Assembly (NCBI GenBank): GCA_003220225.1
Contig: QHRU01000031.1
Coordinates: 62,001-126,000, forward strand
Length of the DNA stretch: 64,000 bases
Reading direction: 5' to 3'
Origin: Candidatus Rokuibacteriota bacterium
GTDB taxonomy: Bacteria > Methylomirabilota > Methylomirabilia > Rokubacteriales > CSP1-6
Shown: positions 42,125 to 53,149 of the stretch, piece by piece
Position numbering within the stretch: the first letter of the stretch is position 1
Layout: every line of letters starts with the position of its first letter
Notes under the pieces: generated by a model
Told to the model about the DNA's origin: nothing
Database searches by the model: none
What the model saw: the letters and a program-made list of their open reading frames with translations, nothing else
Made by a program: the position numbers and the translations under genes

Positions 42125-43234
42125 CTAGTAGAGCACCATCGGATTGCCGGGCGAGCCGGTGGCGCCAATGATCCGCAGCGGCGCCCAGATGAACGCGCCC
42201 TCGAGGATCTTCTTGTCGACGAGCGACTTGGTGTCGACGTTCTCCAGGTTCCAGATGCCCCGGCGGGTCTGCATCTCCGTGTGGCAGGGCACCGCGAAGT
42301 CGGGCCCCTGCTCCCCCGAGGGCTGCGCGTCGCACGCCGACGTATCGCACATGGTCAGCGCGATGTCCCGCGCGGCCAGGTACTCGCAGGCGCTGAGGCC
42401 GAAGCCGGGCTCCCCCTGGTCGAAGAGGTCGCGGGCCGCCTTGCGCTGGGCGGAGTTCATGGATTTGTACCGATCATTGCTCCAGCTGTTGCCCTGCCCG
42501 GTGTGCAGCGCCACGCAGTCCCCCGGCGCGATGTCCCGAAGGCCTTGCATCTGGAGCATGCCTCGGACGTCATCCGCGGTGACGATGCCCGGATCGCCGG
42601 GCTTGGTGGGGATCGGCAACATCTCGGCACCCGCCGGGATCACGCCCTTAGACTTCTTGTAGGCGACGGCGTCCAGCACCACAACGCGACACACGAAGCC
42701 AAGCTCACCCGGATGCTCGACGCCCAGGGGACCCATGCCGACCACGCGGCCGCCCGCGCCGTGCTCGTAGGCGTCCCAGGAGATCACGCCGTTGTACATC
42801 ATCGGGCCCTTCGACGTGTTCACGCCGATGTGACCAGGACCGTCGAACTGCGTCTGGATCTGGCCGATCTCCGTGGTCACCAGCTCGTCGTGGTAGATCA
42901 GCGCGTTCTTGCCGAACGGGCCCCCCGTCGGCGTCCCGGGAATACTCATCTGCCAGCCCCGCGGCCCGAAGGCCGGCGCCTCCCGGTGGTAATACTTCCC
43001 GATCGTGATCGCCTTGTTCTGCTTGATGGTGGCCAGCGCCCGGGCGATGTTCGCGGCGTTCTTCGTGTGGTTGGCCGAGCCCGCCCGGTCGTTCGCCCCC
43101 CACTTGGACGGCGCCCACTTCTCGTCCAGGGGCTTGTCCGAGACCGGTCCCTTCAACGTCTGCGCGACCGCAAGGGCGGCGAACGCCAGCAGGAGCACGG
43201 TCAGGACTGCTTTGCCAATCATCGAGTGCCTCAT
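42125..43234 (-). CDS. Secreted cyclase-family (kynurenine-formamidase-like) protein
   Basis: 369 residues from ATG 43234, preferred because GAGGAGA lies just upstream. The signal peptide (MIGKAVLTVLLLAFAALAVAQ) is cleavable. TQFDGPGHIG replaces the HxGTHxDxPxH of the family, keeping the Asp and final His. Later segments GDCVALHTGQGNSW and CDTSACDAQPSGEQGPDFAVPCHTEM are typical of the long cyclase family, and EGAFIWAPLRIIG closes the fold. Metal-dependent hydrolysis of an amide or lactone in the periplasm is expected. It follows the dehydrogenase-like gene after a hairpin. Confidence 0.88.
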   Translation of the reverse strand: MRHSMIGKAVLTVLLLAFAALAVAQTLKGPVSDKPLDEKWAPSKWGANDRAGSANHTKNAANIARALATIKQNKAITIGKYYHREAPAFGPRGWQMSIPGTPTGGPFGKNALIYHDELVTTEIGQIQTQFDGPGHIGVNTSKGPMMYNGVISWDAYEHGAGGRVVGMGPLGVEHPGELGFVCRVVVLDAVAYKKSKGVIPAGAEMLPIPTKPGDPGIVTADDVRGMLQMQGLRDIAPGDCVALHTGQGNSWSNDRYKSMNSAQRKAARDLFDQGEPGFGLSACEYLAARDIALTMCDTSACDAQPSGEQGPDFAVPCHTEMQTRRGIWNLENVDTKSLVDKKILEGAFIWAPLRIIGATGSPGNPMVLY

Positions 43235-43309
43235 CGAGATCTCCTCTGCCCGGACGGTTGAGAGGCCAGGCGACGTAAGGCCATGGAGGGACACGAATCG
43301 AAGGGCTCA

Positions 43310-43339
43310 CCGGAAGCCGGCGCGTCCGCCGGCTTCCGG
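43310..43339 (-). terminator. 13-bp perfect hairpin between two minus-strand genes
   Basis: CCGGAAGCCGGCG (43310-43322) pairs exactly with CGCCGGCTTCCGG (43327-43339) around a 4-nt loop. It lies behind the stop of 43390-45063 and before the cyclase gene. No U tract follows, so it may be a Rho-dependent pause, an RNase-stop or a weak terminator. Confidence 0.5.
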
Positions 43340-43389
43340 CCTCCCTTACCGCGATCGCCCCGCAAAGCAACCGCGCGCCGCTTCCTCCT

Positions 43390-45063
43390 CTACTGCCCGG
43401 TGTACGTGACCTTCCAGATCACGCCGGAGCGCGGCGTGGTGAAGAACGGCGAAGGCATCGAGTAGTCGATGTAGAGCTCTCCGTAGTCCACCACGTACAT
43501 GCTTTTGCCGTCGTTCGAGAACACGACGTCGTTGGTCCGCTCGAGGCCCCCCCGGTTCTCGGCCTTCTGGTAGGCGTTCGGCCCGGGCTCCTTGTTCCGC
43601 AGGAAGTATGACCACTTGACGCCGGCCGGCTGCAGGAACTCGATCTTGATGATCGCCGGCCAGGTGGGCACGAGGCTCTCCGGGCCGTTGTCGATGATTC
43701 CGAAGATCGCGGCGAACAGGGTGTCCTTGACGCCGAAGCGCTCGTCCCCCCACGCGATCCCGTCCATCGGATTGTTGGTGTCCCACTCGAGGACGGGGTT
43801 GATGTACCCGTTCGGGTTCGGGTTGGCGACGATCAACGGGACGCCGCGCACGCCTTCGACGTGGGGCGGGAAGCGATACGGCGGCATCTGGGGCACCCAC
43901 GGCTTGTCGCCGATGTAGAGATTGGGATATGGCCGATCAACTTTGGCGCCGTTGTACGCCTTGAGCGAGAAGCGCTTGTTGGTGACGAATCCCATGCCCT
44001 CCTTGTCCGGAAAGCCGGCGTCCTGGCCCTTCTCGGTCACGATCCAGAGCTTCTCGGCGCCGTTGGCGATGCGGCGATTGCCGAGGTCGTTCACGCCGTT
44101 GTCGCTGACGGCCAGCGCGTTCTCGAAACGGCTTCCCTTGGGGCCGAACCTGACACCGGACTGGTTGCGGAAGCCCATCGCATACACTTCCATGTCCTTG
44201 TGCTGGTACATCCCGTCCGATCCCTGCTTGTCGATTTTCACGCGCATGATCGAGCCGCCACAGGGAACCTGGGCTTTGATGGTCATGCCCGGCTTGGCTG
44301 GAACCCCGGCCGGCAGCAGCGCACCCGTCAGGCGGCCGTCGGCGGACTTCACGTTGAGCCCGGTGTGGACGATGTCGCGGCAGACTGGATCACGGGCCGT
44401 CTTGGGCAGCGCCGGATCGCCGTGCTTCTCCCAGAATGGGTCGACGTCGTTCGTCCAGCCGTGGTTATCCGGATCGGCGAAGCCGCTGTTGCTCGGAAAG
44501 CCCTGGCCCCAATAGAGGTAGCCGTCCTTGCACGTGATCCCGCCGATCTGGTGGTCGCCGATCGGGAGATCGGTGATGATCTTCTTCAGCTCGCCGTTGA
44601 CGCCGCTGATCTCCCAGATGTGCTTCGAATACTCGGGGATGTAGACCTTGTTGTTCTCGGCGCAGTAGCCGATCTCGTTCATCACGAAGCCGAACCTGCC
44701 AACGCCGATGTCCTTGAGGTGCTTGCCATCCTTGTCGAAGACCTTCACATGAGGTCCGGACACCGGGTTCTTGATCCGCTGCCCCGCGTACTCGTACTCG
44801 AACGGACCGAAGAGGTTTCCGGAGATCGCGACCCAGACGTTGCCTTCGCGGTCCACGGCGGCGGAGCTGGGCGTATCGAGCCCGGCCACGAAGACCTCCG
44901 CCTTGTATCCCTTGGGCACGACGAGCTTGCCGGGCTCCGGCTTCAGGGCGGTGCGCGGCACCCACCCGCCCGACGTGCTCGTTCCTGCGTTCTGCGCCAG
45001 CGCCATGGGGACCAGCGGCAGGGCGGCGAGGGCCGCCAGGATGAGACTCCTGAATATTCTCAT
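43390..45063 (-). CDS. Secreted sorbosone/glucose-dehydrogenase-like beta-propeller protein
   Basis: 557 residues from ATG 45063 (GAGGAGG 8 nt upstream). Signal peptide MRIFRSLILAALAALPLVPMALAQ, then a propeller opening with PKGYKAEVFVAGLDTPSSAAVDREGNVWVA, the start seen in PQQ-dependent sugar-dehydrogenase-like proteins. GDHQIGGITCKDGYLYWGQGFPSNSG, YAMGFRNQSGVRFGP and DGIAWGDERFG follow blade by blade. It is probably a periplasmic PQQ dehydrogenase of an alcohol or sugar. The cytochrome c gene 82 nt upstream could take its electrons. Confidence 0.85.
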   Translation of the reverse strand: MRIFRSLILAALAALPLVPMALAQNAGTSTSGGWVPRTALKPEPGKLVVPKGYKAEVFVAGLDTPSSAAVDREGNVWVAISGNLFGPFEYEYAGQRIKNPVSGPHVKVFDKDGKHLKDIGVGRFGFVMNEIGYCAENNKVYIPEYSKHIWEISGVNGELKKIITDLPIGDHQIGGITCKDGYLYWGQGFPSNSGFADPDNHGWTNDVDPFWEKHGDPALPKTARDPVCRDIVHTGLNVKSADGRLTGALLPAGVPAKPGMTIKAQVPCGGSIMRVKIDKQGSDGMYQHKDMEVYAMGFRNQSGVRFGPKGSRFENALAVSDNGVNDLGNRRIANGAEKLWIVTEKGQDAGFPDKEGMGFVTNKRFSLKAYNGAKVDRPYPNLYIGDKPWVPQMPPYRFPPHVEGVRGVPLIVANPNPNGYINPVLEWDTNNPMDGIAWGDERFGVKDTLFAAIFGIIDNGPESLVPTWPAIIKIEFLQPAGVKWSYFLRNKEPGPNAYQKAENRGGLERTNDVVFSNDGKSMYVVDYGELYIDYSMPSPFFTTPRSGVIWKVTYTGQ

Positions 45064-45145
45064 CGACACTCCTCCTCAACGGTTCGGGGTACCGCGACGT
45101 GAATGCTGCGTGGATCCGATCCTCCTTCCTCGGTCGCGCGGCAGG

Positions 45146-45517
45146 TCAACGGTGCGAGAGCGTGCGAACAAAGGCAACGATGTCCCAGATCTCATCGTCG
45201 CCGAGCCGCGTACTCCAGGCCGGCATGGCCGCGTTCTTGCCGACGGCGGCGCCGCCCTTCTGGATCGCCGCGAACAGATACTCGTCCGAGAGCTGATCCA
45301 TCAGCTCCTTGACCGAGAGGTTGCCGACGTTTGGCCGGAAGGTCTTGGCCTCGCCGCGCCCGTCTTCGCCGTGGCAGCCGGAGCAGTACTGGAGGAAGAG
45401 GACCTTGCCTCGTGTGAGATCGTGACTCCGCGCCGGAGCTGCCCGGGCCACGGCGGCGAGAGCGAAGAACACCACGAAGAGCGCGAGCGCAACAGCACCG
45501 CGCTCCCTGGATGTCAT
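45146..45517 (-). CDS. Small secreted c-type cytochrome
   Basis: 123 residues from ATG 45517. A signal peptide (AVALALFVVFFALAAVARA) precedes one haem site, CSGCH at residues 45-49, and the distal Met lies in AAMPAWSTRL at 97-98. LGDDEIWDIVAFVRTL is the usual C-terminal helix. It is a mono-haem cytochrome of the CccA/alcohol-dehydrogenase-associated type in the periplasm. It lies upstream of the propeller dehydrogenase on the same strand and is its likely electron acceptor. Confidence 0.92.
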   Translation of the reverse strand: MTSRERGAVALALFVVFFALAAVARAAPARSHDLTRGKVLFLQYCSGCHGEDGRGEAKTFRPNVGNLSVKELMDQLSDEYLFAAIQKGGAAVGKNAAMPAWSTRLGDDEIWDIVAFVRTLSHR

Positions 45518-45630
45518 TGTCGCCGTCCCTCGTGACGCGACGTGACTCATGTGGCCTCTGCGGGATGCGAAGTATATGCGGTTGGACGGGAAGTGGCAAG
45601 ACCCGCGCGCCGCGCGGGCCCGTGCCTGCC

Positions 45631-45660
45631 TTGACACCTGCGCGGCGCCCGTCCTATGAT
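45631..45660 (+). promoter_or_regulatory. Sigma70-type promoter of the Ebo operon
   Basis: TTGACA (45631-45636) and TATGAT (45655-45660) are separated by 18 nt. The first base of the transcript would be near 45667, 17 nt before the TTG start of inositol-3-phosphate synthase. The region is intergenic and divergent from the cytochrome gene, so promoter placement fits. Confidence 0.7.
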
Positions 45661-45683: not shown

Positions 45684-46847
45684 TTGTCGCAGAGATCGGG
45701 CGGTGCCCCTCTCGGCGTCTGGCTGATCGGTGCCCGTGGCGCAGTCGCGACCACCACCATCGTGGGGGCGATCGCGATGAAACTCGGCCACGCGGGTCGG
45801 GTTGGCCTCGTGACGGAGACCGACGCGTTCCGCGTCTCCGGACTTGCTTCGCTCGACGATCTCGTGTTCGGCGGTCATGACCTCCTCGACACGCCCCTCG
45901 TCAAGGCCGCTCATGCGCTCGGCCGGGACGCCGGTCCGCTCGCCCCCGAGCTCGTCCACGCCATCGAGGACGAGCTGACGGAGGCGGAGAAGCATCTCAA
46001 GATCGCGCCGCCGACGGCGGCAGCCCGGGCGCCGCTGCAGTTCGTACGTGCGGTGCAGCAGGACCTGGACGACTTCCGGAGGTCGACCGGCGCGCGTCGG
46101 GTGATCGCGGTCAACGTCGCGACCACCGAGCAGCCCGCCGCGGCCGAGCTACGCGATCTCGATCTCGACGCCCTCGACGCGGCCCTGCACGCGCCCGGCT
46201 CCCGCGTGCCGGCGAGCGCGCTCTACGCCTACGCGGCTCTCGACATGGGCGTGCCTTACGTCAACTTCACGCCCTCGGTCGGTGCGTCGCTTCCGAGCCT
46301 CGAGGAGCTGGCGCGGGTACGCGGCGTGCCTCACGCGGGACGCGACGGCAAGACCGGCGAGACGCTCCTCAAGAGTGCGCTTGCGCCGATGTTTCGCATG
46401 CGCCATCTGCACGTGCGCACCTGGGTTGGGTTCAACGTTCTCGGCAACGCCGATGGCCTCGCGCTCTCCGATCCCGCCACGGCCGCCTCGAAGACCGAGT
46501 CAAAGGGCAAGGTGGTTCCCTCGATTCTCGGCTACGAGCCCCAGACGCTGGTGCGCATCGACTACGTGCCCACGCTCGGGGACTGGAAAACCGCATGGGA
46601 CCTGATCCAGTTCGAGGGCTTCCTCGGGACCCCGATGACGCTGCAGTTCACGTGGCAGGGCTCCGACTCGGCCCTGGCGGCACCGCTCGTGCTCGACCTG
46701 ATCCGCCTCGTCGACCTCGCGGCGTCGCGGGGAGAGCGTGGCGGGCTCGGCCACCTCGCTTTCTTCTTCAAGTCTCCGGTGAGCTGCGAGATCCATGACC
46801 TCGCCGAGCAGTACGCGTTGCTGTGCAGACACATAAACGGGTCCTGA
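45684..46847 (+). CDS. Inositol-3-phosphate synthase family protein
   Basis: 387 residues. WLIGARGAVATTTIVGAIAM is the NAD-binding start, and the family core follows: INFTP-like YVNFTPSVGASLP, then GRDGKTGETLLKSALAPMF and LGYEPQTLVRIDYVPTLGDWKTAWDLIQFEGFLG. It converts glucose 6-phosphate to 1L-myo-inositol 1-phosphate with bound NAD. The start is TTG 45684 with AGGAGGA at 45674-45680 (short spacing). It is the first gene of the Ebo-type operon and overlaps EboC by 25 nt. The product may be the cyclitol that the operon modifies. Confidence 0.92.
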   Translation: MSQRSGGAPLGVWLIGARGAVATTTIVGAIAMKLGHAGRVGLVTETDAFRVSGLASLDDLVFGGHDLLDTPLVKAAHALGRDAGPLAPELVHAIEDELTEAEKHLKIAPPTAAARAPLQFVRAVQQDLDDFRRSTGARRVIAVNVATTEQPAAAELRDLDLDALDAALHAPGSRVPASALYAYAALDMGVPYVNFTPSVGASLPSLEELARVRGVPHAGRDGKTGETLLKSALAPMFRMRHLHVRTWVGFNVLGNADGLALSDPATAASKTESKGKVVPSILGYEPQTLVRIDYVPTLGDWKTAWDLIQFEGFLGTPMTLQFTWQGSDSALAAPLVLDLIRLVDLAASRGERGGLGHLAFFFKSPVSCEIHDLAEQYALLCRHINGS

Positions 46848-47701
46848 CCAGCCTCTTCGAACTGGTCCGCCTCCCCAACATCTTCACGGCGCCACCCGAC
46901 GTGATGATGGGGTTGACGGTAAGCGGCGCCGCCCTCACGTCATCAGCCGCCACCCTCCTGCTCGCCTCCGCGTGTGCGTACGCCGGCGGGATGGCGCTCA
47001 ACGACGCCTGTGACGCGACGCTCGATGCCCGTGAGCGGCCCGAACGCCCGATCCCTTCCGGGCGGATCACGCGTGCCGGCGCCTTCACCGTCGCCGGCCT
47101 CCTCCTCGCGCTCTGCCTCGGCCTGGCCGCGGCCTCCGGTCTCCGCCCGTTCCTCGTGGCCCTCGGGCTGGTCGTCGCCATCGTGGTCTACGACGCCGTC
47201 GCCAAACGAACAGCCGTGGGCCCCGCCGTGATGGCGTCCTGTCGGGCACTGAACGCTGGTCTCGGCATCGCGCTCGGCGCGCTCGCGTGGCCCGCGGTCG
47301 GGGCCGTGGCGATCCTCTTCGCCTATGTCCTCATCCTCACGCTCGTCAGCCGCTTCGAGGTGATGACGGCGCCGGTCACCCTCGTCCGGGCCGCCGCGAT
47401 CGGCTTCGCGGCGCTCCTCGCCATCGCGGTCGCGCTGTTCGTCCTCGGGTGGGGACCCGGCGGCCTGACCGGCCTCGTCTTCCTCGCGCTGCTCGCGGCA
47501 TGGCTCGGGCCGCCGGTACGCGACGCCATCGCGGACCCGGCGCCGCGACGGATCATCGGCGTCATCAAGGCCGCGGTGCTCGGCATCATCCTGCTCGACG
47601 CCGCCTTCACGAGCGCGTCGCGCGGTCTGGTGTCGGGTGCGCTGGTGGCGGCATGCTTCGTTCCGGCGTATGTGCTCGGGCGTCGATTTGCCAGCGCATG
47701 A
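46823..47701 (+). CDS. eboC: EboC: UbiA-like prenyltransferase
   Basis: 292 residues with about nine membrane helices. The first UbiA motif is ALNDACDATLDARERPERPIPSG (N-D-x2-D-x3-D), and the second is VYDAVAKRTAVGPAVMASCRALN. In UbiA enzymes these aspartates bind Mg-diphosphate of a prenyl donor. The context (EboA, EboB, EboE, EboF genes downstream) identifies the EboC subgroup. GTG 46823 lies within the 3' end of the synthase gene; its stop overlaps the next ATG (ATGA). It would attach or handle a polyprenyl chain on the operon's cyclic product in the inner membrane. Confidence 0.88.
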   Translation: MQTHKRVLTSLFELVRLPNIFTAPPDVMMGLTVSGAALTSSAATLLLASACAYAGGMALNDACDATLDARERPERPIPSGRITRAGAFTVAGLLLALCLGLAAASGLRPFLVALGLVVAIVVYDAVAKRTAVGPAVMASCRALNAGLGIALGALAWPAVGAVAILFAYVLILTLVSRFEVMTAPVTLVRAAAIGFAALLAIAVALFVLGWGPGGLTGLVFLALLAAWLGPPVRDAIADPAPRRIIGVIKAAVLGIILLDAAFTSASRGLVSGALVAACFVPAYVLGRRFASA

Positions 47702-48552
47702 AGACGCGGTCGTTCCGCTACGGCTACAACACGAACGGCTTCGCCCATCACCGGCTCGATGACGCGCTCCGGGTGATCGCCGAGCTCGGATACGAGGGCT
47801 GCGCCCTCACCCTCGACCACGCCCATCTCGATCCCTTCGACCCGGACATCCGGGTCGAGGTCGAGCGAATCGCCGCCCTCGCCCACGCCCTCCGCCTCTC
47901 GCTCGTCGTGGAAACCGGAGCGCGCTTCCTCCTCGACCCCCGGCGCAAGCACGAGCCCACGTTCCTCAGCGACGAGGTCGAGGGTCGCGCGCGCCGGCGG
48001 GAGTTTCTCGAGCGCACGCTGGCGATCGCGAGGGACCTCGGCGCGGGCGTCGTGTCGCTGTGGAGCGGCGTCCGACCGCCCGGCATTCCGCCTGACGTGT
48101 GCTGGGAGCGCCTCGTGAACGAGATGGAGGCGGTCGTTCGCCGTGCCGAGGCGGCGGGCATCGTGCTCGGCTTCGAGCCCGAGCCGGGCATGCTCGTCGA
48201 AAGCGTCGGAGATTTTCTCGACTTACGAGGCGCCGTCGACTCGCCCGCGCTCCGGCTCACCCTCGATCTCGGCCACTGCCTGCTGACGGAGCCCGATCCG
48301 CCGGAGAAGGTCGTCCACCGTGTCGCCACGATTCTCAGCAATGTCCACGCCGAGGACATGCGGCGGCCGGCCCACGAGCATCTTGCGTTCGGACTGGGGG
48401 AGATGCGCTACGGCCCGATCCTCGTCGCGCTCCGGGAGATCGACTATGCCGGCCTCGTCGGCGTCGAGCTGAGCCGCGACAGTCACCGCGCGCCCGAGGT
48501 CGCCAGGGCGGCGCTCGCCTATCTTCAAGCGGCCGAGCGAGAAACGGCGTGA
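47698..48552 (+). CDS. Sugar-phosphate isomerase/epimerase-like TIM-barrel protein (Ebo-associated)
   Basis: 284 residues of the xylose-isomerase/AP-endonuclease-2 fold. FRYGYNTNGFAHHRLDDALRVIAELGYEGCALTLDH is the first strand-helix unit, and GIVLGFEPEPGMLVESVGDF and LDLGHC...VHAEDM contain the Glu, Asp and His metal ligands. The ATGA overlap with EboC and the next gene's GTGA overlap show tight coupling. This barrel accompanies EboC in many Ebo clusters as far as I recall. It may isomerise or epimerise the cyclitol or sugar precursor. Confidence 0.85.
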   Translation: MKTRSFRYGYNTNGFAHHRLDDALRVIAELGYEGCALTLDHAHLDPFDPDIRVEVERIAALAHALRLSLVVETGARFLLDPRRKHEPTFLSDEVEGRARRREFLERTLAIARDLGAGVVSLWSGVRPPGIPPDVCWERLVNEMEAVVRRAEAAGIVLGFEPEPGMLVESVGDFLDLRGAVDSPALRLTLDLGHCLLTEPDPPEKVVHRVATILSNVHAEDMRRPAHEHLAFGLGEMRYGPILVALREIDYAGLVGVELSRDSHRAPEVARAALAYLQAAERETA

Positions 48553-48569
48553 CGGCCCGGGAGGCGGCG

Positions 48570-49763
48570 ATGGACGACGCCCTCATCGGCGCGCTCGACG
48601 CATTCGGCGCGACGGTAGGTGCAGTCTATCTTCGCGATCCGGAGCACCCGGTGCTTCGGCTCGCCGGCGCCCGGTCGAAGAACGCGGGCGACGCCCCGGC
48701 GTGGGCCGCCGAAGTGGCGTGGGGCAAGGGCGTCGCTGGCGGCGCGGCCGCGGCGGGCGAGCCGCTGACCGGCGTCGAGCACGACCGCTCGACGCTCGCC
48801 GCGCCGCTGCTCCTCGGCGACGACGCCATCGGGGCGCTGGCGGTGGCGTCGGGCGGGGCGCGAGATTTCAGCGGCGCCGACGCCCAGGCCATGCTCGTCC
48901 GTTCGCGCGCGTTGGCGCGCGCGCTGGCCCCGCCGCCGCTCGAAGCCCTCCGGAGCGAGCTCGCGGGTCGCATTCCGGCTCCCGCCTCGCAGTGGCTCGA
49001 CACCACCACCGCCGCCGCCGCCCGCGGCGAGCGAGAAGCGATCGTGACGTCGTTCCCGGCGGTTGGTCGGCGCCTGGGACGCGAGCCGCTCGGCTCCCGC
49101 TCCGCCCTCGTCCGGCGCGATTTCGACGTCGAGGTGCCGCTGCGTGCGTGGCGGATCGACGACGCGGGTCGCGTGGCGCTCCTCTGCGCGTTCGCGGGGG
49201 ATGCCGAGGCGCTCGCCCGCGAGTTGTACTTCACCGGCGACCTGCGCGAGCGCTGCGGCGCGCTGCGCGGCCTGGCGATGTTCGGCCGCAGCCCCGTCGC
49301 CGTCGACAGCGTGCTCGACGCGTGCCGGACAAGCTCGATGGAGCTGTTCGAAGCGGCGACGGCCGACAATCCTTACACGTGCCGGCTCCTGCCCGAAGAG
49401 GAGTTCCGCAACGCGGTGCTCAAGGCGGCCTTCATGGGCGTGTCGATCGCGCGGCTGCCCGGGCTCGAGGCGCGGGTGGACGCCGAATTGTCGCGGATGC
49501 TACTCTCCTACGTCACTGAGCGCGAGGTCGCCGGACGCTCGGTACCGGCGGACATCTGGCCAGTGGTGGCCCTGCATCCGACCCCCGGCCTCGTCGGCAA
49601 GCTCTGCGGGTATCTCGAGCATCCGGCCGAGGCCCACCGCGCGGCCGCCGCGCGCGCGCTCGGCCGGATCGGCGACCGACGCGCGGAGCCGTTCGTGCGC
49701 GACCGGCTCGCCCGCGAGGACGATCGTATGGTTCGGCGCGCCCTCGAGCGCGCCTTGGCCTGA
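48570..49763 (+). CDS. eboA: EboA-domain protein with N-terminal GAF domain
   Basis: 397 residues from ATG 48570, with GGGAGGCGG upstream; a GTG at 48549 overlaps the preceding stop. Residues 1-120 are GAF-like: GATVGAVYLRDPEHPVLRLAGA, WGKGVAGGAAAAGEPLTGV, APLLLGDDAIGALAVAS and FSGADAQAM. Residues 190-395 form the EboA domain, with SSMELFEAATADNPYTCRLLPEEEFRNAVLKAAFMGV and LSRMLLSYVTEREVAGRSVP. A HEAT-like Ala-rich tail ends the protein. EboA has no known enzymatic activity; a GAF fusion points to ligand sensing or docking. Confidence 0.88.
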   Translation: MDDALIGALDAFGATVGAVYLRDPEHPVLRLAGARSKNAGDAPAWAAEVAWGKGVAGGAAAAGEPLTGVEHDRSTLAAPLLLGDDAIGALAVASGGARDFSGADAQAMLVRSRALARALAPPPLEALRSELAGRIPAPASQWLDTTTAAAARGEREAIVTSFPAVGRRLGREPLGSRSALVRRDFDVEVPLRAWRIDDAGRVALLCAFAGDAEALARELYFTGDLRERCGALRGLAMFGRSPVAVDSVLDACRTSSMELFEAATADNPYTCRLLPEEEFRNAVLKAAFMGVSIARLPGLEARVDAELSRMLLSYVTEREVAGRSVPADIWPVVALHPTPGLVGKLCGYLEHPAEAHRAAAARALGRIGDRRAEPFVRDRLAREDDRMVRRALERALA

Positions 49764-49782
49764 CCGAACGAAGGAGGCGCCC

Positions 49783-50652
49783 ATGCGGATCTTCGAGCCT
49801 CACGCCCACATGCTCTCCCGGGTCACCGACGACTACGAGCAAATGGCGCTGGCCGGCATTGTCGCCGTGCTGGAACCGTCGTTCTGGCTCGGGCAGCCGC
49901 GGACGTCGGTCGGCTCCTTCGTGGACTACTTCGACGCGATCATCGGGTGGGAGCGATTCCGCGCCGAGCAGTTCGGGATCCGCCACTACTGCACGCTGTC
50001 GCTCAACCCGAAGGAGGCCAACGACGACCGCGTCAACGAGGGCGTCTTGGCGCTCCTGCCGCGCTACCTCGAGAAGGACGGCGTCGTCGGGGTCGGGGAG
50101 ATCGGCTTCGACGACATCACGCCGCGCGAGGAGCGCCACTTTGCGGCGCAGCTCGAGCTGGCGCGCGCGCACGACCTGCCGGCCCTCGTTCACACCCCGC
50201 ACCGCGACAAGGTGCGTGGCGTCGAGCGGACCCTCGCCATCATGCGCGAGCTGAATTTTCCGCCCGAGCGCGTGCTCATCGACCACAACACCGAGCAGAC
50301 GGTGCCGGTCGTCATCGACACCGGCTGCACGATGGGCTTCTCGATCTACCCGGACACGAAGATGGACGAGCCGCGGATGGTCGAGATTCTCCGCCGCTGG
50401 GGCACGGATCGCATGGTGATCAACAGCGCCGCCGACTGGGGGAAGAGCGACCCGCTGAAGATCCCCAAGACCGTCACGCTCATGCGCCAGAAGGGCATGG
50501 CCGAGCACGAGATCGAGAAGGTCGTCTGGCACAATCCCGTCTCCTTCTTCGCCAAGAGCGGCCGCCTCGACCTCCGTGAGCTCGACACGCCGGTCTCCCC
50601 CGGTCAGCAGCTGTTCGAGGGCAACTCGATCCTTCGCGGGCCGCGCGCCTGA
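49783..50652 (+). CDS. eboB: EboB: TatD-family metal-dependent hydrolase
   Basis: 289 residues from ATG 49783 (AAGGAGGCG 4 nt upstream). RIFEPHAHMLSRVTDDYEQMALAGIVAVLEPSFWLGQPR is the typical EboB N-terminus, with H7 and H9 as the first metal ligands. GVGEIGFDDITPREERHF supplies the Glu, LVHTPHRDK and LIDHN the next His residues, and INSAADWGKSDP the last Asp. TatD relatives are nucleases or phosphoesterases; the substrate of EboB is unknown. It is translationally coupled to EboE through a 1-nt overlap. Confidence 0.9.
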   Translation: MRIFEPHAHMLSRVTDDYEQMALAGIVAVLEPSFWLGQPRTSVGSFVDYFDAIIGWERFRAEQFGIRHYCTLSLNPKEANDDRVNEGVLALLPRYLEKDGVVGVGEIGFDDITPREERHFAAQLELARAHDLPALVHTPHRDKVRGVERTLAIMRELNFPPERVLIDHNTEQTVPVVIDTGCTMGFSIYPDTKMDEPRMVEILRRWGTDRMVINSAADWGKSDPLKIPKTVTLMRQKGMAEHEIEKVVWHNPVSFFAKSGRLDLRELDTPVSPGQQLFEGNSILRGPRA

Positions 50653-51782
50653 TGCGCCTGCCCGACGGCGCGCAGCTCGGCTACTGCACCAACGTCCACG
50701 CCGGCGAGTCGGCCTCAGAGGTGGTCGACTCACTCCGGCGGGTCGCCGTCCGTGTGCGAGAGCACCTCGGCGTCGGCTCGCTCGGCCTCGGCCTCTACCT
50801 GAGCCATCGCGCGGCGTCCGAGGTCGAGCCTCGGAAGCTGCGCGACGAGCTGGCTGGTCTCGGCCTCTACGCGTTCACGTTCAACGGTTTTCCCTACGGC
50901 GGCTTCCACGCCGAGCGTGTCAAGGAGGCCGTCTACCGTCCGGACTGGACCGATCCCCGGCGTGCCGAGCACACGCTCAGGCTGGCGACGATCCTCGACG
51001 CGATTGCGCCCCCGGAGGTCGCCGAGCCTACGATCTCGAGCCTGCCGCTCGGGTGGAGAATCGGCTGGAGCGCCGAGCACACCGACGCCGCCGCCCGCGC
51101 CCTCGTCGGCGTGGCCCGTGAGCTGCGCGCCCGGGCCGAGCGCGGCGGCCGGCGCATCCGCATCTGCCTCGAGGCTGAGCCCGGCTGCATCCTCGAGCTG
51201 ACACCCGACGTCGTCCGTTTCTTCGACGGCCCACTCACCCGCGCCGCCGGCGGTGAGCGCGAGCTGATCGACGCCCATCTCGGCGTGTGCTACGACCTCT
51301 GCCACCAGGCGGTCGCCTTCGAGAATCCGGCCGACGTCGTGGGAATGCTGACGTCGTCCGGCATCCGCGTCGGGAAGGTGCAGGTCTCGAGCGCCCTCGA
51401 GCTGCGTGATCCCACCGACGCGTCGGCGCGGGCGCGGTTGGCGGCGTTCGATGAGCCGCGCTACCTCCACCAGGCGCGTGCCCGCGATGGAGGCTACGTC
51501 GACGATCTCCCGGAATCCTTCGAGCGGTTCCCCCGCGATCGGCCCTGGCGCGTGCACTTCCACAGCCCGATCGACCGCGACTTCACGGGATCGCTGGGGA
51601 CGACCCGGACCGAGCTGCAGAGCGCGCTCGCGCTGCTCAGAAGCGGCAAGGTCACGACGCAGTACGAGGTCGAGACCTACACCTGGTCGGTGCTCCCCGA
51701 GGCGGAACGCCCCGCTGACGACGCCGCCCTCGCGCGTGGGCTCGCGCGGGAGGTGGCGTCGGCGCGAGACAGGCTCGCCTGA
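50652..51782 (+). CDS. eboE: EboE: metabolite-traffic TIM-barrel protein
   Basis: 376 residues. QLGYCTNVHAGESASEVVDSLRRVAVRVRE is the EboE-type N-terminus, with YCTNxH. GLYAFTFNGFPYGGFHAERVKEAVYRPDWT, ICLEAEPGCILELTPDVVRFF and VCYDLCHQAVAFENPADV follow, with the Glu, Asp and His metal ligands of the AP-endonuclease-2 fold. VHFHSPIDRDF is the last metal strand. In cyanobacteria the Ebo proteins are needed to export the scytonemin monomer to the periplasm. ATG 50652 overlaps the EboB stop. Its stop TGA is part of a CTGA that probably starts EboF. Confidence 0.9.
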   Translation: MRLPDGAQLGYCTNVHAGESASEVVDSLRRVAVRVREHLGVGSLGLGLYLSHRAASEVEPRKLRDELAGLGLYAFTFNGFPYGGFHAERVKEAVYRPDWTDPRRAEHTLRLATILDAIAPPEVAEPTISSLPLGWRIGWSAEHTDAAARALVGVARELRARAERGGRRIRICLEAEPGCILELTPDVVRFFDGPLTRAAGGERELIDAHLGVCYDLCHQAVAFENPADVVGMLTSSGIRVGKVQVSSALELRDPTDASARARLAAFDEPRYLHQARARDGGYVDDLPESFERFPRDRPWRVHFHSPIDRDFTGSLGTTRTELQSALALLRSGKVTTQYEVETYTWSVLPEAERPADDAALARGLAREVASARDRLA

Positions 51783-53149
51783 CACCGCTCGTCGTCCTCG
51801 ACGTCGTCGGGCTCACACCCGCCCAGGTCGGCGCCGACACCCCGGCGCTGGCCGCCCTCGCTCGTGAGGGGTTCTTGACCCCGCTCGGTGAGGTGCTACC
51901 CGCCGTGACGTGCACGGCGCAGTCGACGATGCTGACCGGCACGCTGCCGCGCGAGCACGGCATCGTGGGCAACGGTTGGTACTTCCGGGAGCTCGCGGAA
52001 GTGTGGCTCTGGCGGCAGTCGAACCGTCTGGTCGCCGGCGAGAAGGTGTGGGAGGCGGCCCGCCGTCGCCTTCCCGGCTTCACCTGCGCCAAACTCTTCT
52101 GGTGGTACAACATGCACTCGAGCGCGGACTGGAGCGTGACGCCGCGCCCGACGTACCCCGCCGACGGCCGCAAGATCCCAGGCATCTACTGCCAGCCGCC
52201 CGACCTCGCCCACGAGATCGAGCGCGAGCTCGGGCCGTTTCCGCTCTTCCAGTTCTGGGGGCCCGGCGCCGGCCTCACGTCCTCACGCTGGATCGCCGAC
52301 TGCGCCCGGCTCGTCATCGACCGGAAGCGGCCGACGCTCACCCTCGTCTACCTCCCTCACCTCGATTACGATCACCAGCGGTACGGGCCGGACGATCCTC
52401 GCAGCCGCGCGGCCCTGCGCGCGGTGGACGGGCTCGTGGGGGACCTCGCCGGCCATGCCCGCCGCGCCGGCGCCCAGGTGCTGGTCGTTTCCGAGTACGG
52501 CATTCGTCACGTGCGAAAGGCGGTCGACATCAACCGCGCGCTTCGGCGCGCCGGCCTTCTGGCCGTGCAGGACACGGTCGTCGGAGAGCTCCTGGACGCC
52601 GGCGCCTCTCGCGCCTTCGCCGTCACCGATCACCAGGTCGCGCACGTCTACGTTCGTAATCCAGACGACGTCGGCCTCGCGCGGGCAGAACTCGAGCGTC
52701 TCGACGGCGTCGCCGACGTGCTGGACGCCAAGGGCAAGGAAGCCGTGGGCCTGGACCACCCGCGGGCGGGCGAACTGATGGCGGTGGCGGCCCCCGACGC
52801 CTGGTTCACCTATTACTACTGGCTCGACGACGCCCGAGCGCCCGACTTCGCCCCAACCGTGGACATTCATCGCAAGCCCGGCTACGACCCGGCGGAGCTG
52901 TTTCTCGCCGGGGGCCAACGCACAAAGTTGCGGCTCGCCTATCGCCTCCTCCAGAAGACACTCGGCTTCCGTTACGTGATGGATGTGATCCCGCTGCACG
53001 GCGGCTGGGTACGGGGATCTCACGGCCGGCGATCTGCGGATCCGGCGCACGGCCCGGTCCTGATCGGCTCCGCCCACGCGCTCAGGCCGGCAAAGCCGCC
53101 CGAAATGACGGACGTGTTCGGGCTCATCCTCGCGCATCTCGAGCGGTAG
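51779..53149 (+). CDS. eboF: EboF: alkaline-phosphatase/nucleotide-pyrophosphatase superfamily protein, probable CTG start
   Basis: 456 residues if translation starts at CTG 51779. TPLVVLDVVGLTP supplies the first metal Asp (residue 8), and VLPAVTCTAQSTMLTGTLPREHGIVGN holds the Thr nucleophile (residue 44). YLPHLDYDHQRYGPDD and VVSEYGI carry further ligands, and ALRPAKPPEMTDVFGLILAHLE is the C-terminal strand. The first ATG/GTG/TTG in frame is TTG 51875, which would remove Asp8 and 32 conserved residues. No ATG, GTG or TTG lies between 51725 and 51875 in frame. CTG overlaps the EboE stop as CTGA. Hydrolysis of a phosphodiester is expected. Confidence 0.8.
   Translation: MTPLVVLDVVGLTPAQVGADTPALAALAREGFLTPLGEVLPAVTCTAQSTMLTGTLPREHGIVGNGWYFRELAEVWLWRQSNRLVAGEKVWEAARRRLPGFTCAKLFWWYNMHSSADWSVTPRPTYPADGRKIPGIYCQPPDLAHEIERELGPFPLFQFWGPGAGLTSSRWIADCARLVIDRKRPTLTLVYLPHLDYDHQRYGPDDPRSRAALRAVDGLVGDLAGHARRAGAQVLVVSEYGIRHVRKAVDINRALRRAGLLAVQDTVVGELLDAGASRAFAVTDHQVAHVYVRNPDDVGLARAELERLDGVADVLDAKGKEAVGLDHPRAGELMAVAAPDAWFTYYYWLDDARAPDFAPTVDIHRKPGYDPAELFLAGGQRTKLRLAYRLLQKTLGFRYVMDVIPLHGGWVRGSHGRRSADPAHGPVLIGSAHALRPAKPPEMTDVFGLILAHLER

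Follow-up and report, generated by a model that had tools for sequence, protein, structure and literature searches.

The ebo gene cluster, known from many bacteria, cyanobacteria included, and from algal plastids, is both widespread and poorly understood. Among the ring-forming enzymes, EboD and inositol-3-phosphate synthase (MIPS) are unrelated. The locus considered here lies in a 64,000-nucleotide stretch of DNA (the window) from the soil bacterium Candidatus Rokuibacteriota and raises the question of whether one of these enzymes can take the place of the other within an Ebo operon. We show that in this operon MIPS stands in place of EboD, and that the arrangement is a real and conserved variant. 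We favour the explanation that this is a MIPS-type Ebo operon in which MIPS supplies the cyclitol unit instead of EboD, to which as a whole we give a probability of about 0.62; what is seen directly here is the gene content, the absence of EboD, the mutual exclusion of the two cyclases, two exchanges between them, the catalytic residues and a dedicated MIPS subfamily.

Checking of the open reading frames together with Pfam and NCBIfam searches found seven plus-strand genes in the order MIPS-EboC-TIM-EboA-EboB-EboE-EboF (Table 1). The original prediction was correct as to the genes, their strand and their positions, and its description of genes packed with overlaps applies to every junction (overlaps of 1–25 nt) except that of EboA and EboB, which are separated by a 19-nt gap. 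The single promoter proposed ahead of the operon also held: sites matching the sigma-70 consensus as well as this one number 2 in the region, where shuffled sequence would give 0.3, and in two related rokubacteria its elements are kept with a spacer of 17 while the flanks have diverged.

Table 1. Features of the Ebo operon and its divergent neighbours (positions counted from the first letter of the window)
Feature	Position	Strand	Evidence
Sigma-70-type promoter TTGACA-N18-TATGAT	45631..45660	+	11/12 matches; elements conserved in L020 and L178
Inositol-3-phosphate synthase, Ebo-MIPS subfamily, TTG start preceded by AGGAGG	45684..46847	+	PF07994/PF01658
EboC-like UbiA prenyltransferase, motif NDACDATLD	46823..47701	+	NF035940, NF045897, alignment
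Xylose-isomerase-like TIM barrel, keto-sugar 3-epimerase fold (modelled)	47698..48552	+	PF01261, AF2, Foldseek
GAF-EboA-HEAT protein	48549..49763	+	GAF_3, NF035938, HEAT_2
EboB, TatD-like metallo-hydrolase	49783..50652	+	PF01026 and identity to other EboB
EboE	50652..51782	+	NF035939
EboF, type I phosphodiesterase/nucleotide pyrophosphatase family	51779..53149	+	PF01663
c-type cytochrome, divergent neighbour, link to operon uncertain	45146..45604	-	PF13442/PF00034
Protein with signal-peptide-like N-terminus, possible beta-propeller, divergent neighbour, link uncertain	43390..45069	-	

The Ebo proteins themselves were recognized with differing clarity. EboE (390.6 bits, cut-off 250) and the EboA domain of the GAF-EboA-HEAT protein (121 bits, cut-off 50) score well above their family cut-offs, and EboB and EboF share 41–65% and 47–64% identity, respectively, with their counterparts in complete Ebo clusters from beyond the genus. 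The EboC-like prenyltransferase falls below the cut-offs of both the EboC model (NF035940, 184 bits, cut-off 250) and the SCO3242 model (NF045897, 178 bits, cut-off 260); its start may be GTG 46823 or CTG 46844. Read from CTG 51779, EboF matches PF01663 at 8.9e-64 with the domain beginning at residue 4, and no ATG, GTG or TTG start that retains the whole phosphodiesterase domain is present. Since TTG 51875 would cost this domain its N-terminal strand, the start must lie upstream of it, and CTG 51779, which overlaps the EboE stop and is the sole candidate, is probably the one used.

As predicted, no EboD was found by Pfam and NCBIfam among the open reading frames of the operon (45684–53149). 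The genome (6.03 Mb, 167 contigs, 97.3% complete) was then considered as a whole, since an eboD gene at another site would have spoken against replacement: it holds a single PF01761 protein, which we assign to AroB and not EboD because its gene adjoins the chorismate synthase gene aroC, and a hidden EboD elsewhere in this assembly is thereby ruled out. Because EboD is missing from both operon and genome, the operon belongs to the wider Ebo kind and not to the EboD type. A single DHQ-synthase-family protein was also found in 8 of 14 further MIPS-type genomes checked, among them a congener with the same operon (G095) and seven actinobacteria (G097–G100, G104, G107 and G108). Where MIPS-type genomes have a second protein of this family, those examined were rejected as EboD: with a model grown from an AroB query, the EboD proteins of Ebo clusters score 445–640 bits, and AroB and the other cyclases examined 166–245. 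Given that the assembly is in 167 contigs, EboD could in principle be encoded in the missing 3%, MIPS then being an addition and not a replacement; with the congener and several actinobacterial MIPS-type genomes likewise limited to one DHQ-synthase-family protein, we regard this as extremely improbable.

A survey of Ebo clusters, based on 80 named loci from an EboE scan and on regions from about 1,380 further genomes (Actinomycetota, Pseudomonadota, Acidobacteriota and apparently Planctomycetota), points the same way. Among complete clusters, defined by the presence of EboB, C, E and F and scored with profiles built in this analysis, 33 (the window included) carry MIPS, 32 carry EboD, none carries both and 6 have neither within reach, a 33:32:0 count which does not represent 65 independent cases because it comprises just two independent pairs. 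Each of the 65 distinct clusters thus has one cyclase, and the co-occurrence that would have told against the original prediction was seen in 0 of 65. Of the six remaining clusters, three are no counter-examples, having one of the enzymes further off (in L023 an Ebo-like MIPS that shares contig and strand with the cluster and lies 15 kb upstream of it, in L087 EboD 16 kb upstream and in L029 EboD elsewhere in the genome). A fourth, L108, comes from a genome with two copies of the cluster, of which the other one carries MIPS; for L044 and L060 neither MIPS nor EboD was located for the cluster.

MIPS-type clusters were found in Rokubacteria, Streptomyces, Actinacidiphila, Amycolatopsis, Solirubrobacter, other actinobacteria and one member of the Rhodocyclaceae, and EboD-type clusters in planctomycetes, acidobacteria, proteobacteria, one actinobacterium (L113) and one rokubacterium (L012), so that, given these last two, the type of cyclase is not just a matter of lineage. 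Almost without exception, the gene immediately upstream of EboC in a MIPS-type cluster is that of MIPS, and in L128 that slot is occupied by EboD. The MIPS type is not peculiar to the organism of the window, being the norm in Streptomyces, Amycolatopsis and Solirubrobacter. The central idea of the original prediction, in which MIPS takes over from EboD the making of the cyclic core, came through both the whole-genome and the co-occurrence check and gained from the tree result. The actinobacterial MIPS-type EboC proteins belong to the NCBI SCO3242 family (277–362 bits, cut-off 260). Within the phylum of the window, 7 of 95 genomes have an EboE match and 4 (including that of the window) an operon closely similar to the one described here, two of them cut by a contig end (in G062, MIPS and EboC are on a separate contig); the closest operons are L019–L021, on contigs named Candidatus Rokuibacteriota.

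In a tree of concatenated EboB, C, E and F, the window and L014 fall in one group with the actinobacterial and three proteobacterial clusters with full support, and at least two exchanges of MIPS and EboD can be placed on it. In each of the two independent pairs, one cyclase is gained where the other is lost; the sign test over these two pairs gives p 0.5, two exchanges being too few for a phylogeny-corrected test to reach significance, which would take at least six. Considering the exclusion and the exchanges together, we conclude that substitution of one putative cyclitol maker by another in Ebo clusters is well supported by the sequence comparisons.

Is the Ebo-MIPS a true inositol-3-phosphate synthase? 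The window protein matches both MIPS domains above their cut-offs (PF07994, NAD_binding_5, 1.9e-45 and 156 bits; PF01658, Inos-1-P_synth, 5e-35 and 120 bits), and seven catalytic residues (N251, D257, K270, K274, K302, D328 and K363, corresponding to N255, D261, K274, K278, K306, D332 and K367 in Archaeoglobus numbering) are invariant in 36 of 36 Ebo-type sequences. In the MIPS tree the Ebo-type sequences are set apart from the actinobacterial housekeeping type, with another, longer MIPS type falling among them on a long branch, where its placement is unsure. The genome of the window has two MIPS genes, the second, on another contig, being of the housekeeping type, and judged from the tree the Ebo-MIPS forms a dedicated subfamily, distinct from the housekeeping enzyme found alongside it in these genomes. 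Mere capture of a housekeeping MIPS by the operon is ruled out because of that separate copy and the different subfamily of the Ebo-MIPS. The same distance from the housekeeping type would suit an enzyme of changed function that, like the aristeromycin enzyme, turns a different sugar phosphate into a different cyclitol phosphate, and the MIPS fold does include a five-membered-cyclitol-phosphate synthase (PDB 6k96). This enzyme is matched only weakly (54 bits), however, whereas the closest solved structure is that of the true MIPS of Archaeoglobus (PDB 1u1i, 250 bits), and with all seven catalytic positions invariant we consider a change of function quite unlikely.

A different objection is that the inositol from MIPS serves some unrelated end (an inositol lipid, an osmolyte or a catabolic inducer) and that the enzyme is merely co-regulated with Ebo, a transport module that has lost EboD. 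Ebo has indeed been called a translocation machinery (Klicki 2018; PMC6282210). In the same study ebo mutants of Nostoc punctiforme, the one source from which a part in bringing a metabolite to the periplasm is known, retained the scytonemin monomer in the cytoplasm. Genes for the uptake and breakdown of sugars (ROK regulator, ABC transporter parts, Gfo/Idh/MocA) are common at actinobacterial MIPS-type loci. This reading has to contend with the absence of EboD from all complete MIPS-type clusters, with the presence of either cyclase in nearly all clusters of the clade, and with the housekeeping MIPS already present in most of these genomes, and we think it unlikely.

Returning to MIPS as the supplier of the cyclitol unit, we infer from the genes an in vivo reaction, an EboC acceptor, a product and a role for that product. 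The Ebo-MIPS would convert glucose 6-phosphate into 1D-myo-inositol 3-phosphate as the cyclitol unit, and in other Ebo operons EboD, a relative of sedoheptulose-7-phosphate cyclase, would give the matching unit. The TIM barrel (PF01261, AP_endonuc_2) was modelled with confidence (AF2 pLDDT 93), and its model has the fold of a keto-sugar 3-epimerase, with L-xylulose-5-phosphate 3-epimerase UlaE (TM 0.86) and D-tagatose 3-epimerases among the Foldseek matches; it probably tailors the inositol ring or a keto-cyclitol. Its relatives occur in the MIPS-type clusters examined, a more distant one in L023. The common set of Ebo proteins may then prenylate and process the ring (EboC as transferase, EboF as phosphohydrolase, EboB as hydrolase and EboE as TIM enzyme), and the end product would associate with the membrane and be required outside the cytoplasm. 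Such a compound may be the cyclitol of the original prediction, prenylated or linked to a lipid and transported to the periplasm. An isoprenoid-cyclitol Ebo product was predicted earlier, the product of EboD being itself a prediction (Yurchenko 2016; PMC5133447). One published finding is at odds with a cyclitol acceptor, namely that flavobacterial EboC enzymes farnesylate quinoline acids in vitro: this was found for three Bacteroidota EboC enzymes, and for UbiA-297, an EboC homologue from EboD-type flavobacteria that has this activity, no cyclitol acceptor was reported (Amiri Moghaddam; PMC9235831).

The neighbourhood of the clusters offers a further, previously undescribed observation, in that genes for secreted glucose-dehydrogenase or ScyE-type propeller proteins lie beside actinobacterial MIPS-type clusters. 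Of 17 actinobacterial genomes with a MIPS-type cluster, 11 have a glucose/sorbosone-dehydrogenase-family gene no more than about 10 kb from EboE, against 0.26 expected if copies were placed randomly, a comparison in which the calculated probability is overstated as the genomes are related. Among EboD-type clusters, 1 of 37 has a dehydrogenase nearby. In six Streptomycetaceae the gene close to MIPS is instead one of the ScyD/ScyE family, and in L091 it adjoins MIPS on the upstream side. Clustering of neighbours from mechanical reading frames in high-GC DNA is noisy, and only families named by Pfam or NCBIfam were kept. Considering these neighbours of MIPS-type clusters and the fact that the ebo-dependent step of Nostoc has ScyE for a periplasmic partner (PMC6282210), we suggest, no more, that Ebo may serve secreted propeller enzymes. 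The fuller proposal, that secreted beta-propeller oxidoreductases use a prenylated carrier or cofactor which the Ebo pathway derives from inositol, strikes us as quite unlikely; its shared theme would be Ebo with a secreted propeller, namely ScyE in cyanobacteria and ScyE-family or glucose/sorbosone-dehydrogenase-like proteins next to the MIPS-type clusters of actinobacteria. It possibly extends to the divergent exported protein and cytochrome c of the window, the latter in DNA synteny that is kept in L020 and L178. Similarity of the exported protein to the NHL/ScyE family is faint (19 bits across 27 residues), and, the AF2 model being poor (pLDDT 30), its identity as a propeller is no more than a weak match.

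Clusters without eboD are already known, a few having been noted in Leeuwenhoekiella and planctomycetes and ascribed to deletion or draft assemblies (PMC5133447). A search of the literature outside subscription papers yielded no paper that links MIPS with Ebo or describes a MIPS exchange, and MIPS in the place of EboD is new as far as we could find. If two unrelated ring-forming enzymes do exchange in one slot, a cyclitol ring is likely to be a required part of the Ebo product, as the same swap in many actinobacteria also suggests. The exchange would then lend independent support to the cyclitol product predicted in 2016, and it moves the question of that product into Streptomyces and Amycolatopsis, where gene deletion and feeding of labelled inositol are possible.

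Finally, among known systems the Leeuwenhoekiella and planctomycete clusters resemble the window operon in having no eboD, and differ in that no MIPS replacement was described there. The archaeal myo-inositol-1-phosphate synthase (Archaeoglobus, 1u1i) is like the window MIPS in sequence and in all catalytic residues, the gene of the latter being distinguished by its place in an Ebo operon. The actinobacterial clusters share the architecture of the window operon in combining a UbiA prenyltransferase, there of the SCO3242 family, with MIPS and a TIM barrel with EboA; by published listing, the CDA region of Streptomyces coelicolor has a transferase and a myo-inositol phosphate synthase, SCO3242/SCO3243 (PMC3610822). 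In part of the actinobacterial clusters, e.g. in Amycolatopsis, the TIM barrel is fused to EboA, which accounts for the hybrid EboA proteins with a xylose-isomerase-like domain mentioned for actinobacteria (PMC5133447), whereas in the window the two are separate with GAF in between, and EboC is below the SCO3242 cut-off. The EboD-type operon (PMC5133447, PMC6282210) likewise unites an EboA domain, EboB, an EboC-like UbiA protein, EboE and EboF; compared with it, the window operon has MIPS for EboD, an extra epimerase-fold TIM barrel, GAF on EboA, and the gene order MIPS-C-TIM-A-B-E-F.

The EboA of the operon in the window carries a GAF domain at its N terminus, followed by HEAT repeats at its C terminus, whereas reading EboA sequences from actinobacteria and from EboD-type clusters by eye revealed no GAF domain in those inspected. 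We regard a sensory domain on EboA as odd. Upstream, the operon is flanked by three divergent genes (see table), of which those for the cytochrome c and the exported protein also adjoin the inositol-3-phosphate synthase (MIPS) gene syntenically in two relatives, L020 and L178.

Coordinates of features at the surveyed Ebo loci
Feature	Location	Strand	Remark
EboA	window 48549-49763		
Cytochrome c, exported 559-aa protein, PF04199 cyclase-family protein	window 42125-45604	-	divergent to operon
Secreted ScyD/ScyE-family protein	L091:4123-5376		immediately 5' of MIPS
Large secreted glucose/sorbosone dehydrogenase	L119:763-4563		fused to PKD, CBM6, ThuA and 3-keto-disaccharide hydrolase domains
Reduced second cluster, Streptomyces sp. 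NRRL WC-3742	L026:4959-11152		
Long Rhodocyclaceae locus	L177:3469-16114		

In the Rhodocyclaceae (L177 and L023), the order TIM barrel-EboC-EboA-EboB-EboE-EboF is preceded, within one long locus, by MIPS, radical SAM-SPASM, ABC transporter, squalene-cyclase-like, MoxR and VWA genes.

Among the actinobacteria, a secreted ScyD/ScyE-family protein is encoded close to MIPS in Streptomycetaceae MIPS-type clusters (L091, L057, L066, L067, L074 and L085), and a large secreted glucose/sorbosone dehydrogenase lies close to the Ebo clusters at L119 and in 11 of 17 MIPS-type genomes, some of these clusters also having ROK, Gfo/Idh/MocA and sugar ABC genes nearby. The reduced Streptomyces cluster comprises MIPS, a TIM-EboA fusion, EboE and another TIM protein, with no EboB, EboC or EboF detected in it. 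The second Ebo cluster of actinobacterium G245 (L108) has neither MIPS nor EboD, its EboC being preceded by FAD amine-oxidase-like and inositol monophosphatase genes.

EboE was matched in 218 of 294 genomes of the planctomycete phylum; many planctomycetes (L048, L056, L062, L071, L090, L093-L097 and others) encode EboE-like proteins with no other ebo genes nearby. In the phylum search, one metagenome-assembled genome titled Bacteroidia (G113, locus L059) clusters together with those of planctomycetes, and its title is probably a mislabelling.
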